25,004 nt of DNA from a virus. Made by a program: the position numbers and the translations under genes. Numbering within the stretch: position 1 is the first letter of the stretch; the number at the start of each line of letters is the position of its first letter. The DNA is taken from positions 1 through 25,004 of the IMG/VR virus record IMGVR_UViG_3300027754_000410; one strand, given 5' to 3'. Below the pieces are notes generated by a model. The model searched no databases. It had not been told where the DNA came from and was given only the letters and a program-made list of their open reading frames with translations. Shown here piece by piece: positions 5,966-24,424 of this stretch.

Positions 5966-6191
5966 GGGTAATCGGTGGTTTCGCCCCAGTTTGGCAGCTC
6001 CGTGCAAGGTTGCTGGCGGCTTCCTTGGCCAACCATCGGACCCTGGTCGTTTCGTTGTGCCACGCCACGTTTAGTTTTTCCGCCATGGCCAGCAAGCTGG
6101 CGTAGTCCTTGGCGCTGTGAAGTTGCAACAGGGTGCGTTGCACTCGTTCCTGGCGCAAGGCCAGCTCTAAATCCTGCTCGATTGGGTTCAC
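5946..6191 (-). CDS. Small helical phage protein of unknown function
   Basis: The 81-residue product begins MNPIEQDLELALRQERVQRT and is almost entirely predicted helical with many charged residues, then 'VRWLAKEAASNLA', ending in a basic tail. It resembles short hypothetical proteins from podoviruses of cyanobacteria that start 'x-EQ-x-LEL-x-x-R-x-x-R', but I cannot name a function. Its ATG overlaps the stop of the upstream gene by four bases (ATGA) and its end overlaps the next gene by 20 bases, indicating a tight cluster. No signal peptide or membrane helix is present. Confidence 0.6.
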   Translation of the reverse strand: MNPIEQDLELALRQERVQRTLLQLHSAKDYASLLAMAEKLNVAWHNETTRVRWLAKEAASNLARSCQTGAKPPITHDSPHR

Positions 6192-6442
6192 GCGTGGTGC
6201 TGTGTCGTCGCTTCGAGCCTAGAGACCCGTTGCTCCACGGAGTTCAAGCGCCCAAAGGTCTCTTTGCGGTCAGCCCGGATGTCGACGTGAAGTTCTTCAA
6301 GCCTGGTGGCCACGTTTTCGACCGCGACCGTGAGCCGGGTGACTACCTCCCGGTTGGTGGCGCTGCCCCGAATGGCCCCATTGGTGGCCATGACCAGAGC
6401 TGTAAACGCTGAGCCGACCAAGGCGGCGATGATTTCGATCAC
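6188..6442 (-). CDS. Membrane-anchored coiled-coil protein (holin/spanin-like candidate)
   Basis: The 84-residue protein starts with one hydrophobic helix (about residues 2-19, 'IEIIAALVGSAFTALVMA'), followed by 'NGAIRGSATNREVVTRL' and a long heptad-like coiled coil ('VAVENVATRLEELHVDIRADRKETFGRLNSVEQRVSRLEA'). N-in membrane anchor plus coiled coil is a topology seen in phage lysis accessory proteins such as Rz-type spanins, and in some small holin-like or hemolysin XhlA-like proteins. It lies in the small-gene cluster near the endolysin. No cysteine or lipobox is present, so a two-component spanin lipoprotein is not supported. Function inferred only. Confidence 0.6.
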   Translation of the reverse strand: MIEIIAALVGSAFTALVMATNGAIRGSATNREVVTRLTVAVENVATRLEELHVDIRADRKETFGRLNSVEQRVSRLEATTQHHA

Positions 6443-6487
6443 TGCCCCTAGGTCGGTTGGCCTGCGCTTGATTCTACCGACAAGCCG

Positions 6488-7633: not shown

Positions 7634-7673
7634 AGGAAAACCCGGGCTGTGCCGACGCTTTTACCGCTTAACC

Positions 7674-7811
7674 TTACCGGCCCTGTCCACGCATCGGCTT
7701 GCGACCACGACGACGGGGCCGTGATCGCTGGCCTTGACCTTGGCTGGTGGTCTTGGGTGGGCCAGGCTTGTGCTCGATCCGGGCGGTGCCGGACTTGGAT
7801 TTAACGGCCAT
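7674..7811 (-). CDS. Small basic phage protein ending RGQGR
   Basis: The 45-residue product (start MAVKSKSGTARIEHKPGPPK, then TSQGQGQRS...RRRGRKPMRGQGR) is extremely basic. It matches a short phage protein type I know, with 'x-x-G-T-x-R-[IV]-[ED]-H-K-P-x-x-P-K-x-T-x-Q-G' and a terminal 'RGQGR', of unknown function and possibly nucleic-acid or virion associated. The ATG overlaps the previous gene's stop by one base (TGATG), which supports coupling and the start choice. Confidence 0.7.
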   Translation of the reverse strand: MAVKSKSGTARIEHKPGPPKTTSQGQGQRSRPRRRGRKPMRGQGR

Positions 7812-8038
7812 CAAAGCCCCAGCAGCGCCTTCAGTTCGGGCACCGTGAGCCCAGATGCCGCCAGGCGCTCAGCAGGCGTCAGGGGCTCGGGGGCCGGGGG
7901 CTCGGGGGCAGGCTCGGGGGTGTTGCCAGCTTCGAGCCAGGCCAGGTAGGCGGCGTAGTCGGTGTTGGCGGGGTCGGGTGGGATGAAAGCGTTGTCCGCA
8001 AGGCGGAGGATGGTGGCAGAGGCAGTGAGTTGGTACAT
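7811..8038 (-). CDS. Small fibre-associated protein (tail fibre assembly-like)
   Basis: From the ATG at 8038 the protein has 75 residues: 'MYQLTASATILRLADNAFIPPDPANTDYAAYLAWLEAGNTPEP', a Pro/Glu/Ala-rich linker, and a C-terminal 'LTPAERLAASGLTVPELKALLGL'. Both parts are typical of small phage proteins encoded directly after tail fibre genes, which are thought to assist fibre assembly or cap it. An ATG at 8092 in frame would overlap the fibre gene by 19 bases and add a non-conserved leader; the 8038 start has a weak GAGAAG upstream and is preferred. Role is inferred from position and known neighbours. Confidence 0.65.
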   Translation of the reverse strand: MYQLTASATILRLADNAFIPPDPANTDYAAYLAWLEAGNTPEPAPEPPAPEPLTPAERLAASGLTVPELKALLGL

Positions 8039-8073
8039 GTGTCTTCTCAGGTTAGGTTTTGGTAGGTCATGGG

Positions 8074-9693
8074 TTACAGCTCGGCTGTCCAAGAAAGATA
8101 ACCAGTAGACAGGATAAAATACGCATCAAGGTTGGGAGTATTAGAAAGCCCTAAAATCGAAAGATGCCTCCTATATGTAGTACTATTTGAATTAACACTA
8201 AGGTTTGCAATAGAAAAAGTTGCGCTTGCACCGCTGTAGGTAGGCGCTACTCTCATAATTACTGGAAACTCATGAATCAATGGTATGTATGTAGTTGCTG
8301 ATACCGTTGCAGACCTAGCGTAAAAATCGTACGAGCTACCTGTTTGATAGTAATACCTCTGACACAACGTCAACTCCGCCCCATGCGACCTACGCTCAAA
8401 AGGTGTCGCAACGGTGCCTGGTTCTAGCTGGACGTTACCAATGGTCCAAGTGCCGGAGGTTTGAGCGCCAACCGTGAACACAATCTCGATGCCGGTGGTG
8501 GCCGCTGCTGGAACGCTGATGTTGGTGCTGTAGCGGGTGACGGTACTGGTAACGGTGAACGTGCCAGTGGCGATCTGCGTCCGGGTTGGGCTGGCCAATG
8601 TGCCAAAGGTGTCGGCAGTGGTGGCGTAGTAAGCCGTCCAGGTGACAGTGGTGAGCAGTGAATTGGCAAGGTCAACGCTCAGGGTTGCGGTGGTGTTGGC
8701 AAGGTCGGTGCTGTTGAGTTGCTCGATGCGTTGGCCAAAGCCGATGGCCGTGACGCTGGCCGCACCTGTAAAGCGGTAGCGAAATTGTCCGGCTGTGGCA
8801 CCCGCTACTTGTTGGCCGGTGACGTTGGCGCCAGTGCAATAGCCGTACCAGCGGTCCACGCTGTAGGCCAAGGCGGCAGCTGCGGTAAAAGTTTGGGCAG
8901 CACCAGCATTGCGCTGGTCGATTGCGATTGCACCATTGATGATGCGGTTCCGGTTGCCTGCGATGGGGCCACCGTTGAGGCTTGGGAGAACAAGGTCGCC
9001 GGTCATTGTGTCACCGGTTTTGGCAACGGCCTGACTCACCACATAAGCCGTGGTGGCTAACTGCGTGGTGTTGGTGCCAGTGGCAGCCGTAGGGGCTACT
9101 GGGGTGCCCGTAAACGTCGGGCTAGCAATGGGTGCTTTCTCTGTGTCCAATTCCTGGACGGCGGCTTGGACCGTGGTCGCCGCAATGTTCCCGGCTGGGG
9201 TAAACGCAAGTTTGGTGGCGGCAATCGCTGCGGACGCATTTATGTTTCCATTGACGATGGTGTCGTTAGCAATCTTGGCGCTGGTAACAGCGCCTGTGTT
9301 GATTGCCCAAACCGTGCCGCCGACCGACGTCGTGATGTCTCCTTTGTTCCCGTTCGGAATCACATTTGGCAAGTTGTCCGCCTGAGCGTCATCAAGTTCC
9401 TGCTGAATGTAAATGGACTGCCGTGAGTTCGTGTCTAGGTCAGCAGCGACCAGTGTCGCTCCGTCCGCAAAGTCGACGAGCGGTGCATCGATCGGGGTTG
9501 TGCGATACACCCGCACCGCAGCAGCAACAGCTGGCGCTGCGTCCATCTGGATCAAGCTGTTGTTGACCCAGGTGAACGTGGCGGGGATTCCGGCCACCGT
9601 GACGGCAACATGCTCCCGGCGGATGTACGGGAACGCCACCGCGTACTGGGTGGTTGACCCGTTGCCAGTGAAGAGGGTGTAGGAATAAGCCAT
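8074..9693 (-). CDS. Tail fibre protein with T7 gp17-type N-terminus
   Basis: The 539-residue protein opens with the T7 gp17 N-terminal anchoring domain (about 1-110: 'SYTLFTGNGSTTQYAVAFPYI', 'TVAGIPATFTWVN', 'VRVYRTTPID', 'LDTNSRQSIYIQQELDD'), which binds the tail. A repeat-rich shaft follows (about 110-245; 'SPTFTGTPVAPTAATGTNTTQLATTAYV'). From about 249, 'NRIINGAIAIDQRNAG' begins a beta-rich region ending near 450 in 'QLEPGTVATPFERRSHG' and 'LCQRYYYQ', a common phage fibre module. The last ~100 residues (8077-8390) are AT-rich, unlike the rest, and probably are the receptor-binding tip. It is shorter than some gp17s but complete. It would bind the host surface. Confidence 0.85.
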   Translation of the reverse strand: MAYSYTLFTGNGSTTQYAVAFPYIRREHVAVTVAGIPATFTWVNNSLIQMDAAPAVAAAVRVYRTTPIDAPLVDFADGATLVAADLDTNSRQSIYIQQELDDAQADNLPNVIPNGNKGDITTSVGGTVWAINTGAVTSAKIANDTIVNGNINASAAIAATKLAFTPAGNIAATTVQAAVQELDTEKAPIASPTFTGTPVAPTAATGTNTTQLATTAYVVSQAVAKTGDTMTGDLVLPSLNGGPIAGNRNRIINGAIAIDQRNAGAAQTFTAAAALAYSVDRWYGYCTGANVTGQQVAGATAGQFRYRFTGAASVTAIGFGQRIEQLNSTDLANTTATLSVDLANSLLTTVTWTAYYATTADTFGTLASPTRTQIATGTFTVTSTVTRYSTNISVPAAATTGIEIVFTVGAQTSGTWTIGNVQLEPGTVATPFERRSHGAELTLCQRYYYQTGSSYDFYARSATVSATTYIPLIHEFPVIMRVAPTYSGASATFSIANLSVNSNSTTYRRHLSILGLSNTPNLDAYFILSTGYLSWTAEL

Positions 9694-9699
9694 CAGCGG

Positions 9700-12600
9700 T
9701 TAGCGGGGGGTGGGGGACCAGGGGGAGCCAGTGCCGTAGGTGGCTTCGTACTCGGCTTGGGTCTTGGCGTTCTTTTGTTCTGCCAGCATATTCGCAAGCT
9801 TCGGTTCAGTTGCCAAGAAGGCTTCCCGAATGAACGGTTTGTAGACGTCGATCTCTTTGTTGATGCGGATGACCCTGGCGCTGGAAGTGACCTTGCTGGG
9901 CTCAGGGGACGGCAGCTGCCAGTAGGTGGAGTTGGGGGCCACCATGGCCGCAAGGCTCTGGTGCAGCGTCGCGCTACGGCCAGGGGGCACGAGCTGGCTT
10001 GTGATGATCGCCAGCTTGTTGAGCTGGACTTGGTTCAGGCGGTAGTTGGCGACCTCGTTGAACTCCCTGGGGCTCCAAATCTGGAACTGTGCGCCGCGGC
10101 CAGATAGACGACCCAGCTCGACGTCGACGGGGTCGTCAGAGCCAGCTTTGCCGGTGGTGAAGCCAAGGGGGCTGGCGGCGTTAACCATGGCCCTGAGCCA
10201 GGGCTGGTCAGCTGGGATGAACTCCAAGCCCCAAGTGCCGGAGACCAGCATCGGCTCTGCTGTCATGGGGTGCAGGATCGGGGGCAAGGTGCCCGACAGG
10301 CCCGGGATCCTGTTGGCCAGCCGCTCGCCAAGCTCATGGACAAACGCAATCGGCTGCGGCAAGGTCGATTTTTCGATGGCCCGCTGATACGGGTCCCCGC
10401 CTTTGCGGGCGACGTTGAAGATCGACGGCATGAAGCCGCTGAGTCGTCGTTGGACGTAGGAGCTGTACGGGTCGATCTGGCCCTCAACCGGAATAAAGCT
10501 CCGGTTCTGCAGGTCCGAAATCAAATTGGCGATCTCGCCAAGGGACCTGTTCATGTCTTTGGAGAATTGGGCAAAACCAACTTGCCGCCCAAACTCCATG
10601 ACCCCCAAGATCGCGTTACTGGTGAGGGCCTCCAGGTCTTCCTTGGGCATACTGTTGCCTGTGTTCTGGATCAGGCCAATCACGGCAAACATGTTGCTGG
10701 TTGTGTCCAACGCCTGCAAGTTCCACCATTTTGTCTTCCAACCGGTGTACGGGTTCTTGAACCGAATGGAGTACGGCTCGATGCCGAGACGGTTCATCTT
10801 GTCCCGCACCTGGGAGTTGTACGTCCCAGGACCTGAAAACTCAACCCAGCCACTGGTTGCCAACGCGGTTCCAAAGGCCAGCGTGGCTTGCGCGATCGCC
10901 ACTTCCCCAATCACCCTGGACCTGGTCCCGCGGTCCTCGCTGTAGATGTCGCGCCAGAACGTGTCGACAAACGGTGCCGTGAAGCCGTAACCGCGCATCG
11001 ACGCTTTGCCGATGTTGACGGGCGACGTCGGGAACGAGTGCAAGATGCGCAGGACTGGCCAGTGGCCAACTGCGTCTTTAAGGAGCTTGGCGGGCAGGGT
11101 CACGGTTTGGCCCAGCTTCATTCCAAGTTGCGCAGCCGCTGGCGGCTCCTCCTCCACCCAAGCCATGGCTCGGTTGTTGATCTCTGCGACGTCGGTCAAG
11201 CCTTCTTCCTTGGCCTTGATGATGCCGTACTCAAACGATCTGGGTTGAAAGTCAACTTCCAGTGGGTCGGTGAAGTTGATCCAGTCCATGGCGTTTTTGG
11301 CATGAACGCCTGTGAACGCACCGTTCTGGATCATCTTGCCGTTGACTGCGACGTCGACCCATTGGCTTTCAATGCGGTCGTCAACAATTTTGCTGGCTGC
11401 ATCCCAAGCTTCTTGTCCGACCAATCCGCGGCCATAGGCCTTGTTTAGCTCCAGATCCATCATTCGGGACCATTCAGCGCTTGGGCCCATCATTGACGCA
11501 AACAAGGTGTCGATCGAACCAGCGACGCGGCTGGAGGTGTTCAGGAGCTGCCATGACCAGCGCACGGCTCGCGCCGGCGTGTTCTTGTTCTCAGGGTTCA
11601 GCCACCACGGGTTGTCCAGCGTGTTGGTCGGGTCTTCTGGATCCGTGAACATAGACATCTGCTTGTCGCCTGGCGCTAGCTTGCGCCTAACAAGTTCCTG
11701 GGAAGTAACCCCAAGGTTGCCAAAGGCTTCACCTTCCTTGAGTGAATGACCAACCAGCCTGAACGTATTGCTCAGGTTGGTCACCATCTTTCCGTACATC
11801 TGCATGTCCAGGCCGGCCTTCTGCAGGGCTTGGGCGGTTGCTGCCTTGTCCCGCATAGCGGCACTGACACCTGCTACCGCTAGCTCGCCCCAGGCCTGGC
11901 TCAGGGGCATGGTGGTGGCCCTGTACGCAGAGCCAAGCAGCATCTTGGCTGGGGTCCCAATCGACCAAAGCAGCGACGAAATGAACATTTGGCCGATCAT
12001 CTCTTGGTTCAGCCGGTTGGCGGGCACCCGCTTGACCATGCTGTTGAACTTGGCCCGCTGGCCTGGGTTGTCTTTGCCCTCAATGGCAAGCCTGGCAATC
12101 GTTTCCGTGACGCCAGTCGCTTCGGGGGTCAGGTTCCCCTCCTCGATGTCGGCCCGGATCTCGGGATCGAGCTTGCCCAAGAGCGTGTTGGCCGGATCCA
12201 GGATCTCGTCCTCGATGTCGGTACCGATGGACTCGTTGGACCGGGGAACCTCGGGTTCGACAGCGGCTTTGCTGCCGACGATCCGGTTTGCCACGTTGAC
12301 GTCGTAGATCACGGTCTCTGGGGCGGCACCTTCGCGCATCTCAAAGTCCGGGCTGAACCGGATGCCGGAATAGCCCTGGCCGGTGGCCCAGTCCCGAACC
12401 CCGACCTTCTGGGCTTCGGTCATGAACAGCTCACCACCTCGCTTCTCTAGGGGCCCAAGGTTGAGCTCTTGCACCAGGTCGGCGATGCGCTTGTCCATGG
12501 CCACCATGTCCAAGATCCGTATGTCAGACGGCACGTCGCCGGTAGCCGCCGATTCCCCGTAGGCCCCTGCGTAAGTCAAGTCCTCGACAAAGTAGACGCC

Positions 12601-15600
12601 AGTCCCGAGCAAGTTGCTCCTGGCGTCCGACGGCTGAAAGCCGGTGTCGACGATGGCTTGAGCCGCGTCCTGCGACGTGCCGTGGTACAGCACGGTGCCA
12701 GTTGGCAGCGTCCGGTGCGTGGGGTCGATCTGATGCTTGATCTGCATCACGCTCAAGCGTTGACCGTCCTTGCGGGTGGCTGTCATCAAAGAGGTGTCAA
12801 GCCGATGCTGGTCCTCAAGGCCGGCCCACAGGCGCTGCATAGCGGCAGCACGGTCGTTATCGTCCACGGCTGACTGCCACTCGATCGCGGTCATGCCGTT
12901 CTGGGCAGCAAGGCCATCCCGATGGATGACGTTGGCGGCCAGCGCAACCAGGTCCTCCTGGGACTTGGGGTCACCGCGGCGGGCAGCTTCAAGCCTGGTC
13001 ACCGTTGACTCAACGGCCCACCCGTCACGATCCAGCTGGTCCAATGCGGCCTTGACGATGGCTGGCCGGCTGTAGCTCTCGATGCCGGTTTGCTGGGCCC
13101 GGCTGGTCAGCATCTCGCCCAAGGCCCGGTTGCTGGCGATCAGCTCATTGGGGGCACCTGGTACGTACTGGGTGTTGCCGGACCGACTGGTAATTCGACG
13201 CACGTCGCTGGCCCCCATGCGGGCGATCTCCTCTGGTTCCAGCTGGCCCGACTCCAGGGCCTGCATGTTCTGGTCAATGCGCCGTGCGAACTCAGCGGGG
13301 TCCGGGGGATCAGCAGCGAACTGGACACCGTCGTCGGCACCGCCAACCGGGCCACGGTCCTTGATCTCGCCCAGGGCCGCTTTCTCGAACACGTCGTCCC
13401 AGGTCTTGAACTCGCCAAAGGTCAGCAGCCCGTTGATGGTCTGGTCCACCAGCTTTTTGAGTTTGGCGAAACCTTCGATCGGGACCTTGCCGAAGCCCTG
13501 CATGTACGCGGCAAAGCCTTCGGCTTGCGATTCCTTGAGGCTGATGGTTCCGTCCCTGAACCGGCTGGCGTAGCCGGGCCGTCCGTTGGCCTCAGCCTTT
13601 TGGGCTGCCAGTTCCCGAATTGCTTTTTCGCCACGGGCCAGGATGAACTGCTCCTTTTCGTTCAAAAACCAACGCTGCAACCGGTGGAACGATTCGTGGT
13701 ACGTGGTACTCAGCATTTGCGTGAACGACTTTGCTGCCCCGTACGCAGTCATGGCGACGCGGACCTGGTCCTCGGCCATGGACTTGCCGAAGACAGTGCC
13801 AGGCCCGTAGGAACCAGCAATTTCCGCCGCTTGGCCAACCCGACTCATGTCGCCATAGGCCCGAGCCTGCTTTTCGGTGTAAACAACCTTGATCCGATTG
13901 ACGATCTCGAAGTCCGTCACACCAGAAATGTTGTACGCAATGCGGGCCAGCTCGTTCGCTTGGGCATCCGTGATCTTGGTGGCACCTGTGTACCCTTCAC
14001 CAACGGTTCCGCCGACGCCGGTCTCGACGCTTTGCCAACCGGTCAAGTCAGGGAGCTCTGCGGAAAAGTCGGCTCCGCCAAAACCCTGGTTGCGAACTTG
14101 CAACATGCCTGGTTCTGCTGTGGCCGCCATCTCTTTGATGCTGGGCTTGACGACGCGGGCCCCATACGCGGCGACATCAGCGGGGTCTAAGCCTTTGGAT
14201 GCCAGCCAGTCTCTGTACTTTTGGTGAGCCGCTGACTTTTTGCCGGTGGCGTCGCCAGCCAGGGTGTAGGCGACACGATCTATGTCGGTCTCAAACGTCA
14301 ATTCAAATCGTTTCTGGCCGTAGCTGTACCGCGGCTTGAGACCAGCCAGCTCACGAGGCAAGGTCAGCGTCGGGGGTTCGGTGGCGGCAGCTGCCACGTT
14401 GCCCATAGGCTGGACCGCGATGCGTGGTTCCGCCGGCGGCTTCACCCCACGTCGCTCCACCCAAGCCCCAATGTCACCAGCGGCCTGCGTGTCACCGGTC
14501 TCGATGGCCCGATCGTGGGCTTCCAGCGCCGTAGCGATCGCCCGGTTCTCAGCGGGATCCGGTGCGGCCCTGAGGGCAGGGGTGGCTGGTGCCGCCTGGA
14601 TTGGTGCTGGGTTGCCGGCGTTCTCGGGGATGTCTGCGGCCATCTGCTCCAGCGCAGCAGCTCGTTCGTCCAGGCGCTGCATGGCAGCTCGTTGCTGCTC
14701 GTCGATCGTGCGGGTCAAGCTGCCCAGGCTTTGGCCCAAGTCATTCAGTTGTCCGCGAAGCTGATCCGACAGCCTTGTCTCGCCGGCGGTGGCCGCGGCC
14801 GAAGTTCCCGCACTCGGGACACTCGGGGCCATCGGCAGCTTGGGCCCGTGCATCTCCTCCGAGATCGCATCCCGCAACCGCTGGAGATTGAACTGCACCA
14901 GGGCCGCCGCGGCCTTCTCTTGGTTCTTGCCGCCGGGCAACTGGGCGGCCAGCTCATTCAGGACTGCGCGAACCGGCCCTTCGTACCCGGTGACCCGGTT
15001 AAACACGGCCACCGATTCAGCTGCCAGGCGACGTGCGGCCTGACTGCCTTCGACGTCAATGACGTTGCCGGCGGCCTCCAGGAACGGGGTGTTCTTTCCC
15101 TTGGACGCAGATGCCAGGGCCCGCATCTCAACCGACAACGCCTTGTACGCAGCGGTCCTGACGTCGATCAACGCCACGACGTCGGTGGACTTAAACATTT
15201 CCTCGAACCCGGGCAGCACCCCTTCGGCTGGGCCTGCGCCAGCACTGGCGAACTTGGCTTCCTGCATGGCCTGGACAACCTTTTCGGCCGCCCACTTGCC
15301 TTTGAGCGCCTGCTTGGCGACGTCGCTGATGATCGCTTCGTCAATGTCACCAGCAGAGCCAAGGGCTACAGCGACGCTGGTGGGCAAGTCACCGGTCGCT
15401 GCTTTGTCGAAGAGCCACTGGGGCAGGCGACCCAGGGCAATGCCTTCGCTGACCAGCTTGCCGCTCAGCGTGACGTTCTGCAGGCGCAGCTCCTCGATGG
15501 ACATGCCGGTATCCCGGAACAACTTGCCGGCGTCAATGGCGGTGCCTTTGTCGTCCTTGATGTTCTGCAGGGCCGCAATGACGCGGGCATCAGCTGCTGT

Positions 15601-17787
15601 CGGTGCATCGACAAACAAGACGTTCATGAACTGAGCGCCAGATCGCAGGGCCAGGTCGTACCGGTTATGGCCGTTGGCGATGTAGACCTGGCCAGCAGGG
15701 CCCAGCTCCCCCAGCTTGTCCCTCCAGACCGTGACGACGCCTGCGTACACAGGGTCGTAGACGTTTTCCTGGGCCAAGGAGCCGGACTGGCCCGTAGCCG
15801 AAAGCTGGCCCTCTGCTTTGTACTGGAAGACCTTGGGCGCAACAGCAAGATCCTTGGTCGCTATTGGGCCGGTCTGGTTGTAGGCCGGCTGGTTCATGCC
15901 AGGCAGCTGGCCCTGGGGCACTGCTGCTGCTTCTGATGCAGTCACCATCTCCCGGGCGGCCTCTGTCTGCAGGCGCTGGGTACTGGTGATTAGGTCAGCC
16001 TGAGCTTGCTTCAGGGCGGCTGCAGCCACCTCTGGCGTCAACGGTGCGCTGCGGGGCTGCTGGGGCCCACGATCCGGCAACAGGCCCAGCTCGATGCCGG
16101 CGTCTTCACGGGCCTTGCGGCCGATCTGTGTCAGCTGCCAGGACTTCCAACGCTTACCTTCCGCGTCGACGCCTTTGGTCAGCTCGAACCCAAGCATCCG
16201 GTCGACGATGTCGGACTGGACTTGGATGTTGTCAAGGGGGTTGCCCAGCACATACGGCTTGTTGCTTTTGGCTGGGTTGGCGTTCATGTATAGCTGCTTG
16301 CCGATGTCCCACATGGACCACGACTGGCTGCCGGCATTGGGGCCCAGCTCGATGCCGAGCTTTGCTGCTGCGTTGTTGAACGATGCCCGAAGCTTCTGCG
16401 ACGTCGCCTCGATCGCGACTTGATCCTGACCCGCCAAGGATTCTGCGTACCGCTTGCCGCTGGGGGTTGGGATAGGGCTGGCGCCTGGGTTGATGTCGCT
16501 GTAGTTCAGGCGTGGGTAGTAGGTGTCAGCCGGCAGTGTTTGTGGCGCTGGGGCCGCTGGGGCGCCTTGCCTGGCCTGGGGCTCCAAGACGTTCTGGGTC
16601 TCGACACCGGTCTTCTCCCACATCGGTTGACGACGCAGGCCCTGGTACACCTCTGACGAGAACACCCGCTTGCCGGACACGACGCGAGGGGTGGGGGCCG
16701 CAGTGGGGGCTGGGGCACCGGGGGCTGCTGCAGCTGCTGGGGTGCCCGTGGTTGCGGCTTCAACCGCTTCCTTCATGGCGACGTCAGCCTGGCCGACCTT
16801 GACGGTGTTGTGCAAAAGCTCAGCCAGGGCCCGTTTTGTGGCCCCCGCCATGGCGCCGATGCCGTGGAACCCGGTGCCCAAGGCTCCCCCAAGGGGCACA
16901 GACCAGACGGCGTCGTTGATGGATTGCTTGATGCGGGCCTGCTCGACTGTGTCGTTCGGGTCAATCAACAGGCCTTTGGCGACAATGCCTTCAAAGGGGG
17001 TGCCTTTGACGACGTCGTTCAGGCCATCGCTCAGGGTTTTGTCGGTGGGCTTCTGGGCGTAGTAAGTGGCGATCGCGCTTGGGATGGCCCCAGACACGGC
17101 TTCTTCAGCAAAGACGCCAGCGACTTTCTTGAGTCCACCAGCTGCCTTGAGTCCAGCAGTTGCAGCCTCAAAGCCAGTGGCGATCTTGCCCACGCCTGGC
17201 AACGTGCGCACCAATGCGTTTGCTGGGGCGCCGGCTTTGCTTGCGACAGCGAAATACGGCACGAACGCCAGGATGTTGGCCGCAACGTCTTCAACTGGGT
17301 TCTTGGCCTGCTCCTGGGGGCCGTCGTACCCCATCCACTGGGGCAGCCGCACACGCTGGGCGCTCGGAGCTCCGGGCCCGGTTGACGGAATCTTCACGTC
17401 CATGGGCGACGTGCCGGCCGCGATCTGTTCCCGGGCCAGGCGAGCTCGATCTACCTCGTACCTAGCTGCGTCAACAGCCCGCTGGGCGCCAATGGTGCCA
17501 ACACGCTCAACGGACCGGCCCAGGCCCGTCGTTGCCGCTGATTCCTTTTGTGCCGCTGCGATGCCTTTGTTCAGGTCTCCGGTCTGCAGGAACGTGGAGA
17601 CACCAGAGCCCAAGGCGCTGATCTGCTTGATGGGGTTCAAGTCGTTGATGGTTCCTAGGAACCCACCAGGCGCCTGTGGCTTGGGTTGGGGCTTGGGTGC
17701 CTCGGCGTCTGCCCCGATGCCAGTCGGCAACACGTAGACCTTGCGCTCTTCGCCGGTCTTGGGGTCACGGATTGTCTGGACGGGCAT
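9700..17787 (-). CDS. Giant internal virion protein (gp16 position) with polyvalent-type domains
   Basis: At 2695 residues this is about twice T7 gp16 (1318 aa) and takes its place between gp15-like and gp17-like genes. Visible parts: hydrophobic segments near 170-330, a Pro/Ala linker at about 346-371, a ParB-like box around GHNRYDLA (His707), a coiled coil (about 1003-1055), a TTYHESFH zinc-peptidase motif (His1364, Glu1365, His1368), and an ADP-ribosyltransferase-like module with YHGT (His1702), TGVYF (Tyr1732) and PETVIYD (Glu1824). From about 1920 to the end lies a long helical region with hydrophobic stretches that probably forms the core/ejection part. No N-terminal transglycosylase like that of T7 gp16 is seen. 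The protein is expected to be ejected with DNA; enzymatic activities are inferred from motifs. Confidence 0.75.
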   Translation of the reverse strand: MPVQTIRDPKTGEERKVYVLPTGIGADAEAPKPQPKPQAPGGFLGTINDLNPIKQISALGSGVSTFLQTGDLNKGIAAAQKESAATTGLGRSVERVGTIGAQRAVDAARYEVDRARLAREQIAAGTSPMDVKIPSTGPGAPSAQRVRLPQWMGYDGPQEQAKNPVEDVAANILAFVPYFAVASKAGAPANALVRTLPGVGKIATGFEAATAGLKAAGGLKKVAGVFAEEAVSGAIPSAIATYYAQKPTDKTLSDGLNDVVKGTPFEGIVAKGLLIDPNDTVEQARIKQSINDAVWSVPLGGALGTGFHGIGAMAGATKRALAELLHNTVKVGQADVAMKEAVEAATTGTPAAAAAPGAPAPTAAPTPRVVSGKRVFSSEVYQGLRRQPMWEKTGVETQNVLEPQARQGAPAAPAPQTLPADTYYPRLNYSDINPGASPIPTPSGKRYAESLAGQDQVAIEATSQKLRASFNNAAAKLGIELGPNAGSQSWSMWDIGKQLYMNANPAKSNKPYVLGNPLDNIQVQSDIVDRMLGFELTKGVDAEGKRWKSWQLTQIGRKAREDAGIELGLLPDRGPQQPRSAPLTPEVAAAALKQAQADLITSTQRLQTEAAREMVTASEAAAVPQGQLPGMNQPAYNQTGPIATKDLAVAPKVFQYKAEGQLSATGQSGSLAQENVYDPVYAGVVTVWRDKLGELGPAGQVYIANGHNRYDLALRSGAQFMNVLFVDAPTAADARVIAALQNIKDDKGTAIDAGKLFRDTGMSIEELRLQNVTLSGKLVSEGIALGRLPQWLFDKAATGDLPTSVAVALGSAGDIDEAIISDVAKQALKGKWAAEKVVQAMQEAKFASAGAGPAEGVLPGFEEMFKSTDVVALIDVRTAAYKALSVEMRALASASKGKNTPFLEAAGNVIDVEGSQAARRLAAESVAVFNRVTGYEGPVRAVLNELAAQLPGGKNQEKAAAALVQFNLQRLRDAISEEMHGPKLPMAPSVPSAGTSAAATAGETRLSDQLRGQLNDLGQSLGSLTRTIDEQQRAAMQRLDERAAALEQMAADIPENAGNPAPIQAAPATPALRAAPDPAENRAIATALEAHDRAIETGDTQAAGDIGAWVERRGVKPPAEPRIAVQPMGNVAAAATEPPTLTLPRELAGLKPRYSYGQKRFELTFETDIDRVAYTLAGDATGKKSAAHQKYRDWLASKGLDPADVAAYGARVVKPSIKEMAATAEPGMLQVRNQGFGGADFSAELPDLTGWQSVETGVGGTVGEGYTGATKITDAQANELARIAYNISGVTDFEIVNRIKVVYTEKQARAYGDMSRVGQAAEIAGSYGPGTVFGKSMAEDQVRVAMTAYGAAKSFTQMLSTTYHESFHRLQRWFLNEKEQFILARGEKAIRELAAQKAEANGRPGYASRFRDGTISLKESQAEGFAAYMQGFGKVPIEGFAKLKKLVDQTINGLLTFGEFKTWDDVFEKAALGEIKDRGPVGGADDGVQFAADPPDPAEFARRIDQNMQALESGQLEPEEIARMGASDVRRITSRSGNTQYVPGAPNELIASNRALGEMLTSRAQQTGIESYSRPAIVKAALDQLDRDGWAVESTVTRLEAARRGDPKSQEDLVALAANVIHRDGLAAQNGMTAIEWQSAVDDNDRAAAMQRLWAGLEDQHRLDTSLMTATRKDGQRLSVMQIKHQIDPTHRTLPTGTVLYHGTSQDAAQAIVDTGFQPSDARSNLLGTGVYFVEDLTYAGAYGESAATGDVPSDIRILDMVAMDKRIADLVQELNLGPLEKRGGELFMTEAQKVGVRDWATGQGYSGIRFSPDFEMREGAAPETVIYDVNVANRIVGSKAAVEPEVPRSNESIGTDIEDEILDPANTLLGKLDPEIRADIEEGNLTPEATGVTETIARLAIEGKDNPGQRAKFNSMVKRVPANRLNQEMIGQMFISSLLWSIGTPAKMLLGSAYRATTMPLSQAWGELAVAGVSAAMRDKAATAQALQKAGLDMQMYGKMVTNLSNTFRLVGHSLKEGEAFGNLGVTSQELVRRKLAPGDKQMSMFTDPEDPTNTLDNPWWLNPENKNTPARAVRWSWQLLNTSSRVAGSIDTLFASMMGPSAEWSRMMDLELNKAYGRGLVGQEAWDAASKIVDDRIESQWVDVAVNGKMIQNGAFTGVHAKNAMDWINFTDPLEVDFQPRSFEYGIIKAKEEGLTDVAEINNRAMAWVEEEPPAAAQLGMKLGQTVTLPAKLLKDAVGHWPVLRILHSFPTSPVNIGKASMRGYGFTAPFVDTFWRDIYSEDRGTRSRVIGEVAIAQATLAFGTALATSGWVEFSGPGTYNSQVRDKMNRLGIEPYSIRFKNPYTGWKTKWWNLQALDTTSNMFAVIGLIQNTGNSMPKEDLEALTSNAILGVMEFGRQVGFAQFSKDMNRSLGEIANLISDLQNRSFIPVEGQIDPYSSYVQRRLSGFMPSIFNVARKGGDPYQRAIEKSTLPQPIAFVHELGERLANRIPGLSGTLPPILHPMTAEPMLVSGTWGLEFIPADQPWLRAMVNAASPLGFTTGKAGSDDPVDVELGRLSGRGAQFQIWSPREFNEVANYRLNQVQLNKLAIITSQLVPPGRSATLHQSLAAMVAPNSTYWQLPSPEPSKVTSSARVIRINKEIDVYKPFIREAFLATEPKLANMLAEQKNAKTQAEYEATYGTGSPWSPTPR

Positions 17788-17839
17788 GGGTCAGTTGCGA
17801 TGGAGACAGTCTGGACTGCTGACGACAGTGCGCCAGGTG

Positions 17840-20593
17840 TTACCGGAGGTAAGTGCGGCCTTTCCTTTGGACGCTGTCCTCTTGGACTTGGGTGCCACCG
17901 GGCAGCGATGGCCATGTGCCACGCAGGAGTCGGTCAGCCTCGTCGTACCTGCCAGCGTTGATGGCCACCCATGCTTTTTTATTGTTGACGCGGATCCAGG
18001 CTGCCGTGGCATCAGAAGCATCTTTGAAGTTGGCACTCCGCGGCGATTTGCCACCAGACGCCTGAATCGCTTCCTTGTTGAATGCGTCCTGAGCCTGGAA
18101 GTATCCCGTCGCTCCAGAGCCCTCGGAGTTTGGAATGTTGCGCAGCCTGGTTTCGATGTACGACAGCCGCTTCAGGTATCCGTCGACCCTGGCCGACGGA
18201 CTTACGACTGACCTGGGTTTAGACGTAATGATGGCCGGTGGTGGCGTCGCCGGCCCACCCCTGAAACTTGGCAGCGGCGGCAACGCGGGCATCTCCATTG
18301 CTGACGCTGGTGGCACCAGCAAGTCGCCCAAGGCCCTGCTGGCGATCGAGATGCCCATCAGGGCTGGGTTCTGCTGGGGCGTCATGCGGGACTGGGGCGT
18401 GGCCATCGACAGCTTCTGGCCGTCCAGGGCTTTGATCGCTGGCAGGGCTGCAGGGTCAACCGGGATTCCATGCAGCCTGTACTGATTCAGGATCACGTCA
18501 GACGCCTTCTGCCCGCCACCCGTCAACGCTTTCATCAGGGTCTTGAAGCCTTCCGTTGGCTTGCCGGTGCGCAGCCATGTGTCCATCTCGTTTATGAACG
18601 CATCTTGCTTTAGGACCTGCTTGTTCTGAGCCGCACCCCGCAGGCCATTGGCTTTCAAGGGGTCGATGACGTTGCGCGATGCGGAGCCGGTGTTCTGTTG
18701 AATCAGTTGGGGCAAGGACTGATACGACGGGGCTGGGTCGATGCGACGGGTGAACCCGAAGTTGCTGTTGGCGAAGTATTTATTGATGGCGTCAGCAGGG
18801 TCTTTGCCAGCGGCGATGGCTTTTGCTACTTCGTCTTGGGCACCCTGGAATCCCTTAATGTTAAAATTGTTCATCATGCCCATCTCGTAGCTTGTGATGG
18901 TGCTATCGCCGTACGATCCGGGCGACGCAAAGTACGACATCTCCCTTTTGCGTATTATGTCTAATTGCTTGTTGATGGCTCCGTCGTAGGCGCGAACGTC
19001 TCTATTTCCTTGAGCGTTAATGGATCCTTGAAGGCTGATTGCGGCAGCGCCAGAGATCTGTTTGTTGTCAAGGGCGGCTTGAATCTGGGCTTGCAGTTGC
19101 TTGCGTGCCCCGTCGTCGCCTTGGGTCAAGGCCAACTGCTGAGTAAAGTAAAGGGCCTTTTGGGCCTGGGCTGGCGCTGTGTACGTGGCGTCGAACTGCG
19201 TCCGATCTGCGTTAATAGCAGACAAGCGAGCACCACGAATGTACGGATCCTGGATGGCCAGCGCAGCCTTTTCTTGTGCATCAAAGAACGCAGTGCCCAA
19301 GGTTCCATTCTTTTGAGCACTTGTGCGTACGTCGTTGTACTGCCGCTCCGCGTCAATTTTGGCAAGCTGAGACAACTGGGATTCGTTTTGGATTGATTTT
19401 TGCTGAAGGTCGGACCCTAGTCGATCCAAGTAGGGTTCACCGCCCAAGGTGTTGTAAAGGCGCAAGTCTTCATTTGGGTAGCCATCTTTGCCAATGCGTT
19501 GGTCGATTGGCCCGGTAAAAACGTTGCGCAATACGGGATTGATTAAAGTGCCAAGATTCGGAATAAACTGGCGATTTGCTTTTGCAGCTGTGATTACGTT
19601 GGTAGCCCAAGACTCCAGGATTCCATCTATTACTTTCTTTTTTGCTTCTGGCGTAAGTGTAGTCAGCATGGTTTGGTCAATTTGTCTTTGCAGCGTTTGC
19701 GATCCAGCGGCAATCGCAGCCCCCATGCCGCCGCGTCCGTAAAAATTGGTCACATATACGCCTGCCGCGTACTTCAAGTTGTCTGCAAGTTGTCCCTGAA
19801 ACTGAACTTCGCTGGCTACGTTGTAGCGTTTGCGTTGGGCATCGTCCGCTTGGAGCTGAGCGTTCAAGATGAGTTGCTGATTCTTGGCAGCAGTAGCCGC
19901 GCTTATCGGTCTGCCGCCAAACAGTTGCCCGTCCCGGTACTCTTTCCACCTGGGGTCAGTGGTTGGCAACGAGCTCAGTTCAATCTTTTGGCCACCGACG
20001 TCGATCGTGCTTGTGTTTTCTAGCCGGCCCGACAGCGACATCACCGACTCCGAGATCGCGTTCTGCTCCGACGACCGCTCCAGCCAAATTCGCCCGACCG
20101 AGCTGTTCTGCATCTCGCGCAGGAGTTGCAGATCCCTGGCCGCCTGCGGAGCATCGGCCCCGCCTAAGGCAACCTTCTTCTCAATGGCGCTTGTTATCTT
20201 CGCTAGGTCATAGGCGGGGCCGTATTTGGTGACGAGACCTGTGGCCCTCTGCTCTGCCTCCTTGGCGTCCGCTTGCTGCTTGGAGACATAGGACTCGCTG
20301 AACCCCTGCAACGCGGTGCTGAACCCCCCGAGGGACCGGGCCAGGTTCGCCATGTCTTGGCCTGGGTTCGGCAGGTCCGGTGGCGCAAAGAACTTCGGGG
20401 CCCCACCCAGGATCGGAGCCCCCACCTGCTGGAACGTGGACACCGGGGTCGCCCGTGGCTGGAGCGACGGCGCAGTGATCGCCCCTTGGGCAATGGCACC
20501 TGACGTCGCGTCAATGGGGATGCCGCCCAGGAGCTGAGCCGCTGTGGCGCGGTTGGTGTCGCCGTAGGTCTGGCCGGTGGAAATGCGTGCCAT
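17840..20593 (-). CDS. Internal virion protein (gp15-like) with C-terminal lysozyme-like domain
   Basis: The 917-residue protein sits between gp14-like and gp16-like genes and is longer than T7 gp15 (747 aa). Most of it is helical with Gln/Ala-rich segments, as in internal core proteins that form the trans-envelope channel on infection. Near the C terminus, residues ~805-905 contain 'RLSYIETRLRN', 'GSGATGYFQAQDAF' and 'LRGTWPSLPGG', which resembles a lysozyme/transglycosylase-like fold with Glu814 as the candidate catalytic acid and 'SGATGYFQ' as the substrate-site strand. In T7 the transglycosylase is at the N terminus of gp16. A 3-base gap to the upstream gene and a 52-base gap to the downstream gene are present. 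The enzymatic assignment is moderate. Confidence 0.75.
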   Translation of the reverse strand: MARISTGQTYGDTNRATAAQLLGGIPIDATSGAIAQGAITAPSLQPRATPVSTFQQVGAPILGGAPKFFAPPDLPNPGQDMANLARSLGGFSTALQGFSESYVSKQQADAKEAEQRATGLVTKYGPAYDLAKITSAIEKKVALGGADAPQAARDLQLLREMQNSSVGRIWLERSSEQNAISESVMSLSGRLENTSTIDVGGQKIELSSLPTTDPRWKEYRDGQLFGGRPISAATAAKNQQLILNAQLQADDAQRKRYNVASEVQFQGQLADNLKYAAGVYVTNFYGRGGMGAAIAAGSQTLQRQIDQTMLTTLTPEAKKKVIDGILESWATNVITAAKANRQFIPNLGTLINPVLRNVFTGPIDQRIGKDGYPNEDLRLYNTLGGEPYLDRLGSDLQQKSIQNESQLSQLAKIDAERQYNDVRTSAQKNGTLGTAFFDAQEKAALAIQDPYIRGARLSAINADRTQFDATYTAPAQAQKALYFTQQLALTQGDDGARKQLQAQIQAALDNKQISGAAAISLQGSINAQGNRDVRAYDGAINKQLDIIRKREMSYFASPGSYGDSTITSYEMGMMNNFNIKGFQGAQDEVAKAIAAGKDPADAINKYFANSNFGFTRRIDPAPSYQSLPQLIQQNTGSASRNVIDPLKANGLRGAAQNKQVLKQDAFINEMDTWLRTGKPTEGFKTLMKALTGGGQKASDVILNQYRLHGIPVDPAALPAIKALDGQKLSMATPQSRMTPQQNPALMGISIASRALGDLLVPPASAMEMPALPPLPSFRGGPATPPPAIITSKPRSVVSPSARVDGYLKRLSYIETRLRNIPNSEGSGATGYFQAQDAFNKEAIQASGGKSPRSANFKDASDATAAWIRVNNKKAWVAINAGRYDEADRLLRGTWPSLPGGTQVQEDSVQRKGRTYLR

Positions 20594-20596
20594 GGG

Positions 20597-21301
20597 TTAT
20601 GCGGGCTTGAATCCCCAGTAGTTCATTTTTAGTCCAGCCTGCTTCATCGACGCAGCAGTGCTCATGCCGGTTGTAACACCAGCCATGCCAGCACTAAGGC
20701 CCTGCAAGATGAACGGCGTCATGCTCGGCGCCTTCTGGTACAAGGGCTCCAAGGGATCCAGTACCGGCTGCTTGATGTACGTCTGCTGGCTGGCGATCCT
20801 TGATCCACGTTCGGCAGCTGCCCCGACCTTCTGCTGTTGCAGCTGGGTTCCCATGAACGCCAGGTTCTGGCTGGTCGCAAAGTCGTACTGCGCCTGCTGT
20901 CGGTAGAAGTCAGCGATCAAGTTGTCTGGTGTGTTGCCAAGGCGACCGGATGCAAGGACCTCACCCCGGGCCTTAAGCCCAGCAATCGCGCCCTTCTGCT
21001 GCTCCTGGCTGGATGCAGCTTGCTCCTGTATGAATCTTGTATTAAGTGCTGCGACGTCGTTGGCGAAAGCATTGTCGGCCATCAACCTAGTGATTCTTTT
21101 CACCTCTTCTTGCTGGTTTGCTTTGAGGTCTTCATAGCCACGGGCCACCATGGCCGAGTTCTGCTGAAACGCATACTGCTGTTGGGCCTGGGCGTTCGCA
21201 AAAAGAACCTGGTCCTGGGCCGCCTGGGCGCCAGCGATCGACTGACCGATGCCTAGGCCAGCGGTCACGACACCCATGATGATTGGGATTGGTCCACACA
21301 T
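20597..21301 (-). CDS. Internal virion protein B (gp14-like)
   Basis: The 234-residue protein begins MCGPIPIIMGVVTAGLGIG with an N-terminal hydrophobic segment (about 5-25), followed by a Gln/Ala-rich helical body ('AQAAQDQVLFANAQAQQQYAF' and later 'QTYIK'). T7 gp14 (196 aa) similarly starts with MC and a hydrophobic helix, and acts as the outer-membrane pore component of the ejectosome. Position between gp13-like and gp15-like genes supports the call. The ATG starts four bases after the upstream stop. A Gly/Met-rich hydrophobic segment near 195-220 could also insert into membrane. Confidence 0.8.
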   Translation of the reverse strand: MCGPIPIIMGVVTAGLGIGQSIAGAQAAQDQVLFANAQAQQQYAFQQNSAMVARGYEDLKANQQEEVKRITRLMADNAFANDVAALNTRFIQEQAASSQEQQKGAIAGLKARGEVLASGRLGNTPDNLIADFYRQQAQYDFATSQNLAFMGTQLQQQKVGAAAERGSRIASQQTYIKQPVLDPLEPLYQKAPSMTPFILQGLSAGMAGVTTGMSTAASMKQAGLKMNYWGFKPA

Positions 21302-21305
21302 GGCG

Positions 21306-21773
21306 TCAGATCCTCACGAACTCAAGGAACAGCCGACCCTCTGTCCCGAACTGTGGGTGCGACTTGATGAAGGTGAACCCCATCCAGCGCAACCACCTGA
21401 TATGCACCACATTACGAGCATCCGCAAGGTTGCACAGGACCCGGTACCGAGCCTGTATTGCGTCCAGATGGACCCTGGCTTCCCGCAGGAACCGCATGGC
21501 GTTCAGTCGGTCCCGGGCCAGGTCATCGGTACACAGCATCCAGATGCACCCGACGTCGGCCCGTTGCGGCACCACCCCCCACATGCCCATGGGTCGACCG
21601 TCTCGCCCGATCATCGTCATGCACGGGTCCCCTTTGAAGAAGCTGTGCAGCAGAGACAGCTGTGGCGTCTGGCCGGACTGGGCCCGCACCTCAGCGACGT
21701 CCTCCTCCCGCATGAACTCCGCCACGTACGGGATGTCAGAGACCCGTGTGGGCCTGGTGTACGGCGTGTTCAC
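21306..21773 (-). CDS. gp13-like internal protein, acetyltransferase fold (DUF2833)
   Basis: From the GTG at 21773 the protein has 155 residues; the GTG overlaps the TGA of the tail tubular B gene by four bases (GTGA), which fits better than an ATG at 21809 that would overlap by 40. The sequence ('TRPTRVSDIPYVAEFMREEDVAEVRA', 'MTMIGRDGRPMGMWGVVP', 'IWMLCTDDL', 'NVVHIRWLRWMGFTFI', 'FLEFVRI') matches the GNAT-like proteins in the T7 gp13/DUF2833 group that I know from podoviruses. In T7 gp13 is needed for virion assembly; whether this version has acetyltransferase activity is unknown, but the GNAT-like Trp-Met-Gly-Phe end is retained. Confidence 0.75.
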   Translation of the reverse strand: MNTPYTRPTRVSDIPYVAEFMREEDVAEVRAQSGQTPQLSLLHSFFKGDPCMTMIGRDGRPMGMWGVVPQRADVGCIWMLCTDDLARDRLNAMRFLREARVHLDAIQARYRVLCNLADARNVVHIRWLRWMGFTFIKSHPQFGTEGRLFLEFVRI

Positions 21774-24421
21774 AGGCGGGCGGAGCGGGTGTGGTACCAA
21801 CCCTCCCATTCTGCCGATTGGATGCGACAGGGCAGGGGACTTGAGCTGGTGATCTCGACCTTGGCCTCGATGTTCTGGGCCATGACGGGCACCCGGAACT
21901 TGGATGTCCGCAGCGCCAGTTCCCCCAAGGCGATCTCTTGGTCTCCGATCTCCAGGCCGGTGTACGGGTACGTCTGGGCGTCCCGGCCCCGTGGTGTCAC
22001 CCGCAGGTTGAAGGCCGACGTCTTGTCGAACACGACGGTCCAGGTGCGCAGCTGCAGCTTCGGTCCAGCCACCACAGCCATGCCGCCGCCTGGTGGTTGC
22101 TCCTTCAGGAACTGGGAGCTGAACTCGTACAGCATGTCGTAGGTTTCGCCCACGTAGAACTTGGCGGACGTCAGGTCTCCACGGACAGTCAGGGTTCCGT
22201 TGCCCCCAGTTCCACCGGCAGCCGTTGATGAAATGATCTGTGCCGACTGGCCGTGCATCAAGCTGTTGCCGGCATAGAACCGACCCACCACCGCCATGTG
22301 GGCGTTCGTTGTGTCGATCGGATACGGCAGGGTAATGGTGCTCTGGGTGTCGAGCCCGCTCGGTGTCGTCAACGCCACGGAGCAGCTGGCCTCAGTGGCT
22401 TTGCGGTCGAGCAGGAGTTCCACTGTGGTGCCAGCGTCCACGGATTCGGGCCGGGTCACCACTTTCTCCAGGTAGACCCCGTTGGAGTATTGGACCACCA
22501 GGTACAGGTCGCTGTCCACCATGTCGACCCCGATGATGCTCTTGCCCCCGTTGGTCTCCCAGTACCCCCAGGCGCTCTGCAGCTTCTTGTCGCCCTCGAA
22601 CAGGAACTTGTACCCATAGACCCGGGTCGGCTGGTCTTTGGACACGACGTACGCAGCCTCTTCAGCTGCTGTCGCCACCAGGTTGCAAAGGTTGCCTGGC
22701 AAGAACCGTGGCACCGACGACGTCACCTCTTCCGATGTGGGCACCGGGCCCGAAGCATCCGGCAAGAAGAACTCCCGCAGCCCACTAAAGTCCCCCCTGG
22801 GAATGGCGAAATACATGGTGCGACCCACGATCACGGGGTCCACGACGTCGCCCATCTCAAACGCTGTGACCTGGGTGACCGCTGCGGTCTTAGGGGTCAG
22901 CGACTGGCCAAGACTGGAGCCTGAGTCCAATCGAAACTGGCCATGCCGGCTGAACAGCAGCAGCACGTTCGAGAACGCAACGCTGGCCATGAGGAAGTTG
23001 ATCTTGCGGCTGCCGGCACTCAGGTCGATCGGGTCTGAATCGACGATGGTCTGTGCTGACTCAGGCCAGAACCGGTCGTACGAATCAGCGGCCGACGTGA
23101 TGACGTTCTCGTCAGCGAGCAGCACCAGCCGGTTGCGGAACAGGTTGACGTTCTGGATGGTGGACCCCACAAAGCTGGGGTTTGGAGCTGTGGTGGCATC
23201 ACCAGCGACCCGGCCGGTCCACGTGAACTTCTGGAACGTGAAGGTCCCGTCGTTGTTGCGGATCAACACATGCGGCATGGTCGTCGCATCAAACAGGTAT
23301 GCGATGCCAGGGGCCACTGTCTCCTGCCAAACACCATGGCCAAAGCCTGAGCCAACATTGGTGACGAACTTCACGTAGTAGTCGTCGGCCCCAGTGGCAG
23401 CAGCGCCCAGGATCTTGACGATGAACCCGTGCTCAGCGGTGACAGGCAGGTCACTGATGGAGTCGATGGTTCCTTTGATGGGCACAGTGGCCAGGCTGGT
23501 CTTGGTGTCGCTAGAACCCAGCGTGTAATCGGTGCCGTCGTTCTTGGCGATCCGCACGATGTATTCGCCGGTGCCGTTGGTAACGGTGAACGTGCCGCCC
23601 AGTGCTGTGGCCAGCGATGCTTTCAGGGCCCCAGCGATCTCAACCGTGCTCGGGCTGTAGTTCGGTTCATGGACGACGGTGCAATTTCCTGACGTCGTGC
23701 CACCCGCAGTATCTGTGTACGTGAATGTGTTGGCACCAGTCACCGTGATCGTAAAAGTGCCTGCAGTGCCAGAACCACTCTGGAAGCTCATGTCCACCTG
23801 GTCATTGGTGAACAAGCCGTGGGCCGTAGCGGTTACCGTGACCGTGTTGGAGCTCCTGCTGTACGTGGCTGACATTCGCTTGCCACCAGCCGGCAGCGTG
23901 GTGTAACTGACCGTGGTGGCGTTCACGGTGATGCTGTACGTGGTGGCGTACTCAGCAGACCTGATGAACACCATGGACTTGGTGCCCCAGCTGGGCGACG
24001 TCGTGCCTGACATGGCCACCGTCTTCTCACGGTTCACGATGAACGTGTAGTCAGCGACCGATGCGACCCGAAACGTGGAGCTGGGTTCACCCGTGATGTC
24101 GAGGTACGACGTGCCGTCTGGGGTGCTGACCGTCTTCACCGATCCATCCAACCCAAACACCTTGATGGCGTTGTCTTGGATCAACACCAGGTACTTGATG
24201 GTTCCGTCTCGGTCCACGATGGTCGTGAACGGCCGGCCGGCGCCAGCTGACCCATTGAACAACTTGGCGATGTGCTGGGCTGACGGTCGCTTCTTCAGGC
24301 CCTCCACTGGGCTGGCCATGCAGTTGACCATCTGCTCGCACTGAGACGCCAAGCGCAACGCTGCTGGCTGCTGGCTGACCCCATTGATGAGGTTCGGGAT
24401 GGAGCTGCTGATGAGTGGCAT
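21770..24421 (-). CDS. Tail tubular protein B (gp12-like)
   Basis: The 883-residue protein aligns by eye with T7 gp12 (794 aa) from end to end: 'NLINGVSQQPAALRLASQCEQMVN' and 'EGLKKRPS' at the N terminus, 'VADYTFIVNR' near residue 120, 'NPSFVGSTIQNVNLFRNRLVLL' in the middle and 'WEGWYHTRSARL' at the end. gp12 forms the tail nozzle that contacts the host. The extra length is mostly an insertion at about residues 181-253 carrying 'HGLFTNDQVDMSFQSGSG', a module common in other phage tail proteins. The gene is three bases downstream of the gp11-like gene and overlaps the gp13-like GTG start. Confidence 0.95.
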   Translation of the reverse strand: MPLISSSIPNLINGVSQQPAALRLASQCEQMVNCMASPVEGLKKRPSAQHIAKLFNGSAGAGRPFTTIVDRDGTIKYLVLIQDNAIKVFGLDGSVKTVSTPDGTSYLDITGEPSSTFRVASVADYTFIVNREKTVAMSGTTSPSWGTKSMVFIRSAEYATTYSITVNATTVSYTTLPAGGKRMSATYSRSSNTVTVTATAHGLFTNDQVDMSFQSGSGTAGTFTITVTGANTFTYTDTAGGTTSGNCTVVHEPNYSPSTVEIAGALKASLATALGGTFTVTNGTGEYIVRIAKNDGTDYTLGSSDTKTSLATVPIKGTIDSISDLPVTAEHGFIVKILGAAATGADDYYVKFVTNVGSGFGHGVWQETVAPGIAYLFDATTMPHVLIRNNDGTFTFQKFTWTGRVAGDATTAPNPSFVGSTIQNVNLFRNRLVLLADENVITSAADSYDRFWPESAQTIVDSDPIDLSAGSRKINFLMASVAFSNVLLLFSRHGQFRLDSGSSLGQSLTPKTAAVTQVTAFEMGDVVDPVIVGRTMYFAIPRGDFSGLREFFLPDASGPVPTSEEVTSSVPRFLPGNLCNLVATAAEEAAYVVSKDQPTRVYGYKFLFEGDKKLQSAWGYWETNGGKSIIGVDMVDSDLYLVVQYSNGVYLEKVVTRPESVDAGTTVELLLDRKATEASCSVALTTPSGLDTQSTITLPYPIDTTNAHMAVVGRFYAGNSLMHGQSAQIISSTAAGGTGGNGTLTVRGDLTSAKFYVGETYDMLYEFSSQFLKEQPPGGGMAVVAGPKLQLRTWTVVFDKTSAFNLRVTPRGRDAQTYPYTGLEIGDQEIALGELALRTSKFRVPVMAQNIEAKVEITSSSPLPCRIQSAEWEGWYHTRSARL

Positions 24422-24424
24422 GGC

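Follow-up and report, generated by a model that had tools for sequence, protein, structure and literature searches.

The locus examined here raised the question of what makes up a protein that stands where T7 encodes gp16 and is 2.04 times as long (2695 vs. 1318 aa), and whether its additional parts could act in the host cell. The roughly twofold size reported in the initial annotation was borne out. The window (the whole stretch of DNA analysed, a virus record of 25 kb) carries minus-strand late genes for gp11, the gp12 nozzle, a gp13-like protein, gp14, a 917-aa protein in the gp15 position, the 2695-aa protein, and a tail fibre. The main genes, in window coordinates, are as follows:

21770..24421, minus strand: gp12-like nozzle protein (PF25675, E 2.4e-240)
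20597..21301, minus strand: gp14-like internal virion protein (PF24072, E 2.6e-8)
17840..20593, minus strand: gp15-position internal virion protein (weak C-terminal lytic transglycosylase signal)
9700..17787, minus strand: giant gp16-type internal virion protein, 2695 aa, ATG start (open reading frame, synteny, relatives in IMG/VR and in P-SCSP1 phages)
8074..9693, minus strand: T7-type tail fibre (PF03906, E 3.6e-22)

Because the window TerL (74% identity) and nozzle (65%) are nearest to those of the Prochlorococcus phages P-SCSP1, these two proteins place the phage as a T7-like relative of the MPP-C cyanopodoviruses, in the P-SCSP1 lineage. The gene order gp12-13-14-15-X-tail fibre is common to the window, P-SCSP1u, P60, and S-CBP42.

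The gp16 position held and could be raised to homology with P-SSP7-type gp16, as both flanks of the giant protein matched cyanopodovirus gp16 in the same order. In this comparison, a family profile was aligned using HHalign to one built from 13 gp16 proteins of the cyanopodovirus type, and two backbone parts were recovered:

16723..17337, minus strand: N-terminal ejection-protein backbone, residues 151-355 (P-SSP7 gp16 119-269, probability 94-96%)
9757..12246, minus strand: C-terminal ejection-protein backbone, residues 1848-2677 (P-SSP7 gp16 505-1217, E 1.8e-37, probability 99.9%)

Between these flanks lie 235 residues in P-SSP7 vs. about 1,490 in the window protein. Given the homology of the flanks, the roughly 1,250 additional residues sit within an ejection-protein backbone and, as read from the alignment, account for the ParB, peptidase, and ADP-ribosyltransferase (ART) domains described below. 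P-SSP7 gp16 (1245 aa) occupies the same place in the genome and is homologous in its N- and C-terminal parts but, unlike in the window protein, no ParB, peptidase, or ART was seen in it, whereas in gp16 of P60 and S-CBP42 the same flanks enclose only an ART. PHROG_6651, named "internal virion protein", contains gp16 of P-SSP7, P60, and S-CBP42. T7 gp16 shares the position and presumed role of the window protein; no similarity to it was found with a single sequence or with HHalign against a three-sequence T7 profile, for which the divergence may be too great. No hydrophobic segment exceeded a mean KD of 1.6, and the best two, 169-187 and 2292-2310, both fall in the backbone parts and prove nothing on membrane insertion.

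The domains and motifs between the flanks are located as follows:

15256..15873, minus strand: predicted ParB module (N-domain and HTH domain), residues 639-844 (Foldseek, VIA, TIGR00180 in relatives)
15661..15672, minus strand: GHNR motif, residues 706-709 (invariant in the family and in a portal-fused copy)
13468..13965, minus strand: zincin-like metallopeptidase domain, approximately residues 1275-1440 (model and VIA matches)
13684..13698, minus strand: HESFH, residues 1364-1368 (HExxH kept without exception, 42 of 42 relatives)
13531..13533, minus strand: Glu1419, candidate third zinc ligand (invariant in the alignment, on the helix after the HExxH helix)
12253..12720, minus strand: predicted PARP-like ADP-ribosyltransferase domain, residues 1690-1845, with His1702, Tyr1732, and Glu1824 (PF00644, PDB profile matches)

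GHNR near residue 707, HESFH, and the H-Y-E residues of the ART were all found where the initial annotation had placed them. Residue shuffles of the protein produced GHNR in 0.36% of cases, HExxH in 0.64%, and GHxR in 9.4%; therefore the GHNR and HExxH matches are suggestive on their own and the H-Y-E pattern on its own is not. What goes beyond chance is the conservation of GHNR and HExxH, together with fold and family-model matches that are independent of the motifs. Every sequence covering the site, among 42 non-redundant relatives, retained GHNR and HExxH. Full-length IMG/VR relatives share 51-69% identity with the window protein, and the wider family, P-SCSP1 phages included, about 25-40%. 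All three domains are under purifying selection, with dN/dS values of 0-0.13 for the ParB module, 0.01-0.33 for the peptidase, and 0-0.18 for the ART (one pair at 0.45). In some relatives (e.g., L009 8458-9495), an additional conserved segment (GYDGIVFTGDFGLPGGKREIDLGALPEV) lies between ParB and peptidase, which is missing from the window and for which no family match was found.

The ParB-like region around GHNR proved to resemble a full ParB in the predicted structure, in which the match spans both the nucleotide-binding (N-) domain and the HTH domain. The model of residues 610-1490 had a mean pLDDT of 67, with much of the ParB core at 72-88. Foldseek with this model returned ParB (6t1f, E 2.2e-5, prob 1.00), and the structure matches of the region included ParB of Caulobacter, Noc, and KorB. 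In VIA, ParB aligned over 182 positions (Z 11.2, rmsd 4.3) to model positions 30-235, which correspond to residues 639-844; sulfiredoxins matched the first half of the region only (Z 7.5, rmsd 3.3, 91 aligned). TIGR00180 was matched by 5 of 23 relatives, the best (L053) at E 4.6e-5 and 23.3 bits vs. a cut-off of 58.45, and was not matched by the window protein itself. A search of PDB sequences with the profile of the region found no ParB; therefore the assignment rests on the fold and on TIGR00180. The window module thus shares the fold of N-domain and HTH domain with ParB, Noc, and KorB, and differs from them in its GHNR motif and in sitting in a virion gene. Chromosomal ParB partition proteins have a GERR-type motif, with a catalytic Glu where GHNR has His. 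A ParB of the DdrB family was considered and dropped: PF18763, which scores 5.9e-42 on P1, matched none of P-SCSP1u, S31C1, P60, and two relatives from IMG/VR, and did not match the window even when E values up to 10 were allowed; an HHalign comparison with P1 DdrB was likewise negative.

The same ParB module was also observed elsewhere. On a contig binned as Leptolyngbyaceae (L098 6354-8918), it lies behind a Mu-type portal (portal E 5.9e-31), and this fusion is a second, independent link of the module to the virion. The giant protein also matches PHROG_21 ("portal protein"), a match for which the portal-ParB fusion suggests a reason; identity as a portal was dropped, the match being confined to profile positions 1008-1287. 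In Nohivirus S31C1 (L025 8444-16338), the gp16 position seems split into a first open reading frame with ParB and HExxH and a second large protein. L100 has the ParB module in a 1666-aa frame with HESFH, and its gp16 position (6420 onward) is perhaps split likewise, into a ParB and HExxH protein and a second large protein. Ruegeria phage 45A6 (L103 3784-12411; record 24146-35884) encodes a hypothetical protein, about 3,900 aa long, that has the ParB module (with GHQR; E 5.7e-37) and, beyond it, HESIH. A rather unlikely extension of these observations is that the module acts as a nucleotide-switched DNA clamp, carried by the ejection apparatus (gp16 here, the portal in Mu-like phages) and placed on the genome during entry. 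The arriving DNA would then already hold a partition-type clamp driving or protecting its entry, and the ART on the same chain would modify the host at once.

The metallopeptidase call made initially also holds, given HExxH and an invariant downstream Glu1419, with a zincin fold match of moderate strength (Z ~6). His1364, Glu1365, His1368, and Glu1419 were invariant in the family alignment. The peptidase part of the 610-1490 model had pLDDT mostly of 70-88 and showed strands, followed by the HExxH helix and further helices. With model positions 650-860, VIA matched anthrax LF (1pwv, Z 6.3, rmsd 7.2, 152 aligned) and PPEP-3 (9g0j, Z 5.9, rmsd 4.4, 142 aligned), both below Z 8. From motifs and context, the HESFH region is likely a zincin-type peptidase. 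The position of Glu1419 on a helix after HExxH fits the MPTases of polyvalent proteins as described by Iyer 2017 (PMC5512222).

The ADP-ribosyltransferase call stands on matches to the Pfam PARP family and to PDB sequences. With residues 1495-1860, PF00644 gave E 4e-6 and 26.9 bits, which is borderline against the cut-off of 26.7, and the whole protein gave 23.7 bits; PF00644 was matched by 17 of 34 relatives (best E 1.3e-7) and ART-PolyVal, weakly, by nine. In the search of PDB sequences with the family profile, PARP chains (PARP10/3/14/15) were on top, the best at E 0.0018. The structure model of residues 1500-2695 (pLDDT 50.5) was too poor for the ART fold, and its Foldseek matches were noise; weak Pfam matches of the ART segment alignment to VbhA, VMAP-M15, and Lsr2 were likewise treated as noise. 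The window clade, the L061 clade, P60, and S-CBP42 all have the complete H-Y-E triad. In the P-SCSP1/marine clade (L022, L044, L048, L053, L042, and others), which forms one clade in the tree, the His is replaced by Lys (equivalent of window 12682-12684) and the Tyr and Glu are kept, while a basal clade has no ART domain. Because one clade lacks the domain and another replaces its His by Lys, the ART is, as judged from its distribution, modular and not essential to all members of the family. The change from His to Lys possibly alters the chemistry. The Lys form is probably in use and not decaying, because the domain is under purifying selection within clades. In one relative that lacks the usual ART (L070, within 5379-8594), the stretch from ParB to the peptidase contains a motif resembling that of an ART (YFHGT...GNGFYTTDD; low HHalign probability, 34%), a candidate domain relocation.

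Domains of these kinds are already known from the virion-linked polyvalent proteins, for which MPTase, ART, and ParB domains have been described (Iyer 2017, PMC5512222). Like these, the window protein combines a ParB-superfamily domain, a zincin, and an H-Y-acid ART on one late-gene polypeptide, and the likeness drawn in the initial annotation was apt, with at least two disparate domains on one polypeptide among late virion genes. The window protein differs in having a ParB/Noc-type HTH, rather than DdrB, and in its carrier; what is new is the building of such domains into a P-SSP7-type gp16. The word "cyanophage" is absent from Iyer 2017 (PMC5512222), and the passages available from a paper on a Klebsiella virion ART do not tie the ART to a gp16-type protein (PMC13119998). 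The giant hypothetical protein of P-SCSP1a-u (e.g., ULF50148.1) is an orthologue by position with the domain order of the window protein, at 34% identity, and has Lys where the window has His1702. It was published as not annotatable, with a role as internal virion protein only speculated from size and position (PMC9860041), and the matching passages of a cryo-EM paper on P-SCSP1u make no mention of it (PMC10575957).

Taken as a whole, we find it somewhat probable that the protein is a gp16-type ejection protein with a built-in cassette of ParB, zincin, and PARP-like ART that is packaged, ejected, and active in the host. By analogy, enzymes probably enter the host along with the viral genome. 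The giant protein would be packed into the head, as would gp14 and gp15, and would exit through the tail while the DNA enters, as T7 offers a precedent for packaging with the core and for ejection (PMC8954989). The flanking backbone parts may help form the conduit, and tomography of P-SSP7 has described a tube through the envelope (PMC5345008). Once the cassette had reached the host cell, the ParB module would hold or protect the incoming phage DNA, the peptidase would cut its own polypeptide (or a host protein) and free parts of it, and the ART would modify host proteins ahead of phage gene expression. For ART action on host proteins, the precedent is T4 Alt, and for peptidase processing it is P1 DdrB, which is cut before packaging (both PMC5512222). 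We infer packaging, ejection, cytoplasmic location, activities, and targets from T7, N4, P1, and T4; what was seen at this locus and in its relatives is the gene position, the order of the domains, the relatedness of both flanks to gp16 of P-SSP7, the fold and family matches, the conservation, and the purifying selection. The initial interpretation is partly supported: its three domain calls, its polyvalent likeness, and the gp16 position hold, whereas a target such as host RNA polymerase is conjectural. No sequence similarity to T7 gp16 itself was detectable.

The same domains could instead serve in assembly or inside the capsid, where ParB would order the packaged DNA near the portal vertex, the zincin would be a maturation protease, and the ART an accessory. 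The ParB module fused to the portal in L098, where DNA at the vertex would be the target, and the cutting of P1 DdrB before packaging (PMC5512222) are in line with such a role. We nevertheless consider it unlikely, as it is hard to see what an NAD-dependent ART would do inside a capsid, and polyvalent proteins that are thought to be injected carry ART, ParB, and peptidase together (PMC5512222). It is quite improbable that the domains have degenerated and now only add structural bulk to the core. The strong purifying selection on each of them, the invariance of GHNR, HExxH, and Glu1419, and the intact H-Y-E in the window clade, P60, and S-CBP42 argue against decay, although the P-SCSP1-clade ART has Lys for His, a basal clade has none, and GHNR has His at the position of the catalytic Glu of chromosomal ParB.

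That the gene encodes no virion protein at all, and is a large late-expressed cytoplasmic protein placed by chance between gp15 and the tail fibre, appears very improbable. We found no proteomic detection of the protein in virions in the literature, which would fit this explanation; however, both flanks are homologous to P-SSP7 gp16, an annotated internal virion protein, and the relatives read have the gene in the same place.

Under the ejected-cassette reading, the locus bears on how podovirus ejection proteins are viewed. These are usually regarded mainly as conduits, whereas here effector-type domains are built into the conduit protein across a whole lineage, which includes cultured Prochlorococcus phages that lack a DNA polymerase and are reported to be abundant. 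The orthologous P-SCSP1 gene now has a concrete function hypothesis with testable residues, and the delivery of host-modifying enzymes with the DNA by T7-like phages becomes a directly testable question. The presence of the ParB module in both gp16 and a portal protein suggests that virions contain a DNA-handling element not recognised before.

Further observations concern the neighbouring genes. T7 gp16 has an N-terminal SLT domain, whereas in the window phage the SLT signal lies on the gp15-position protein (SLT_4, weak at E 0.079, residues 816-874, window 17972-18148). The gp15 equivalent of P-SCSP1u (L022 1901-4759) has SLT_3 at its C-terminus (E 1.1e-13), and the transglycosylase thus appears to reside on the C-terminus of gp15 instead of the N-terminus of gp16 here. 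The late genes of the window are split by strand, with TerL, endolysin, and a tail protein on the plus strand (1609-5625) and the structural operon on the minus strand (8074-25000). Just past the tail fibre, among the late genes, lies an exonuclease/metallophosphoesterase-like gene (window 6488-7633; PHROG_284, E 1.9e-52).
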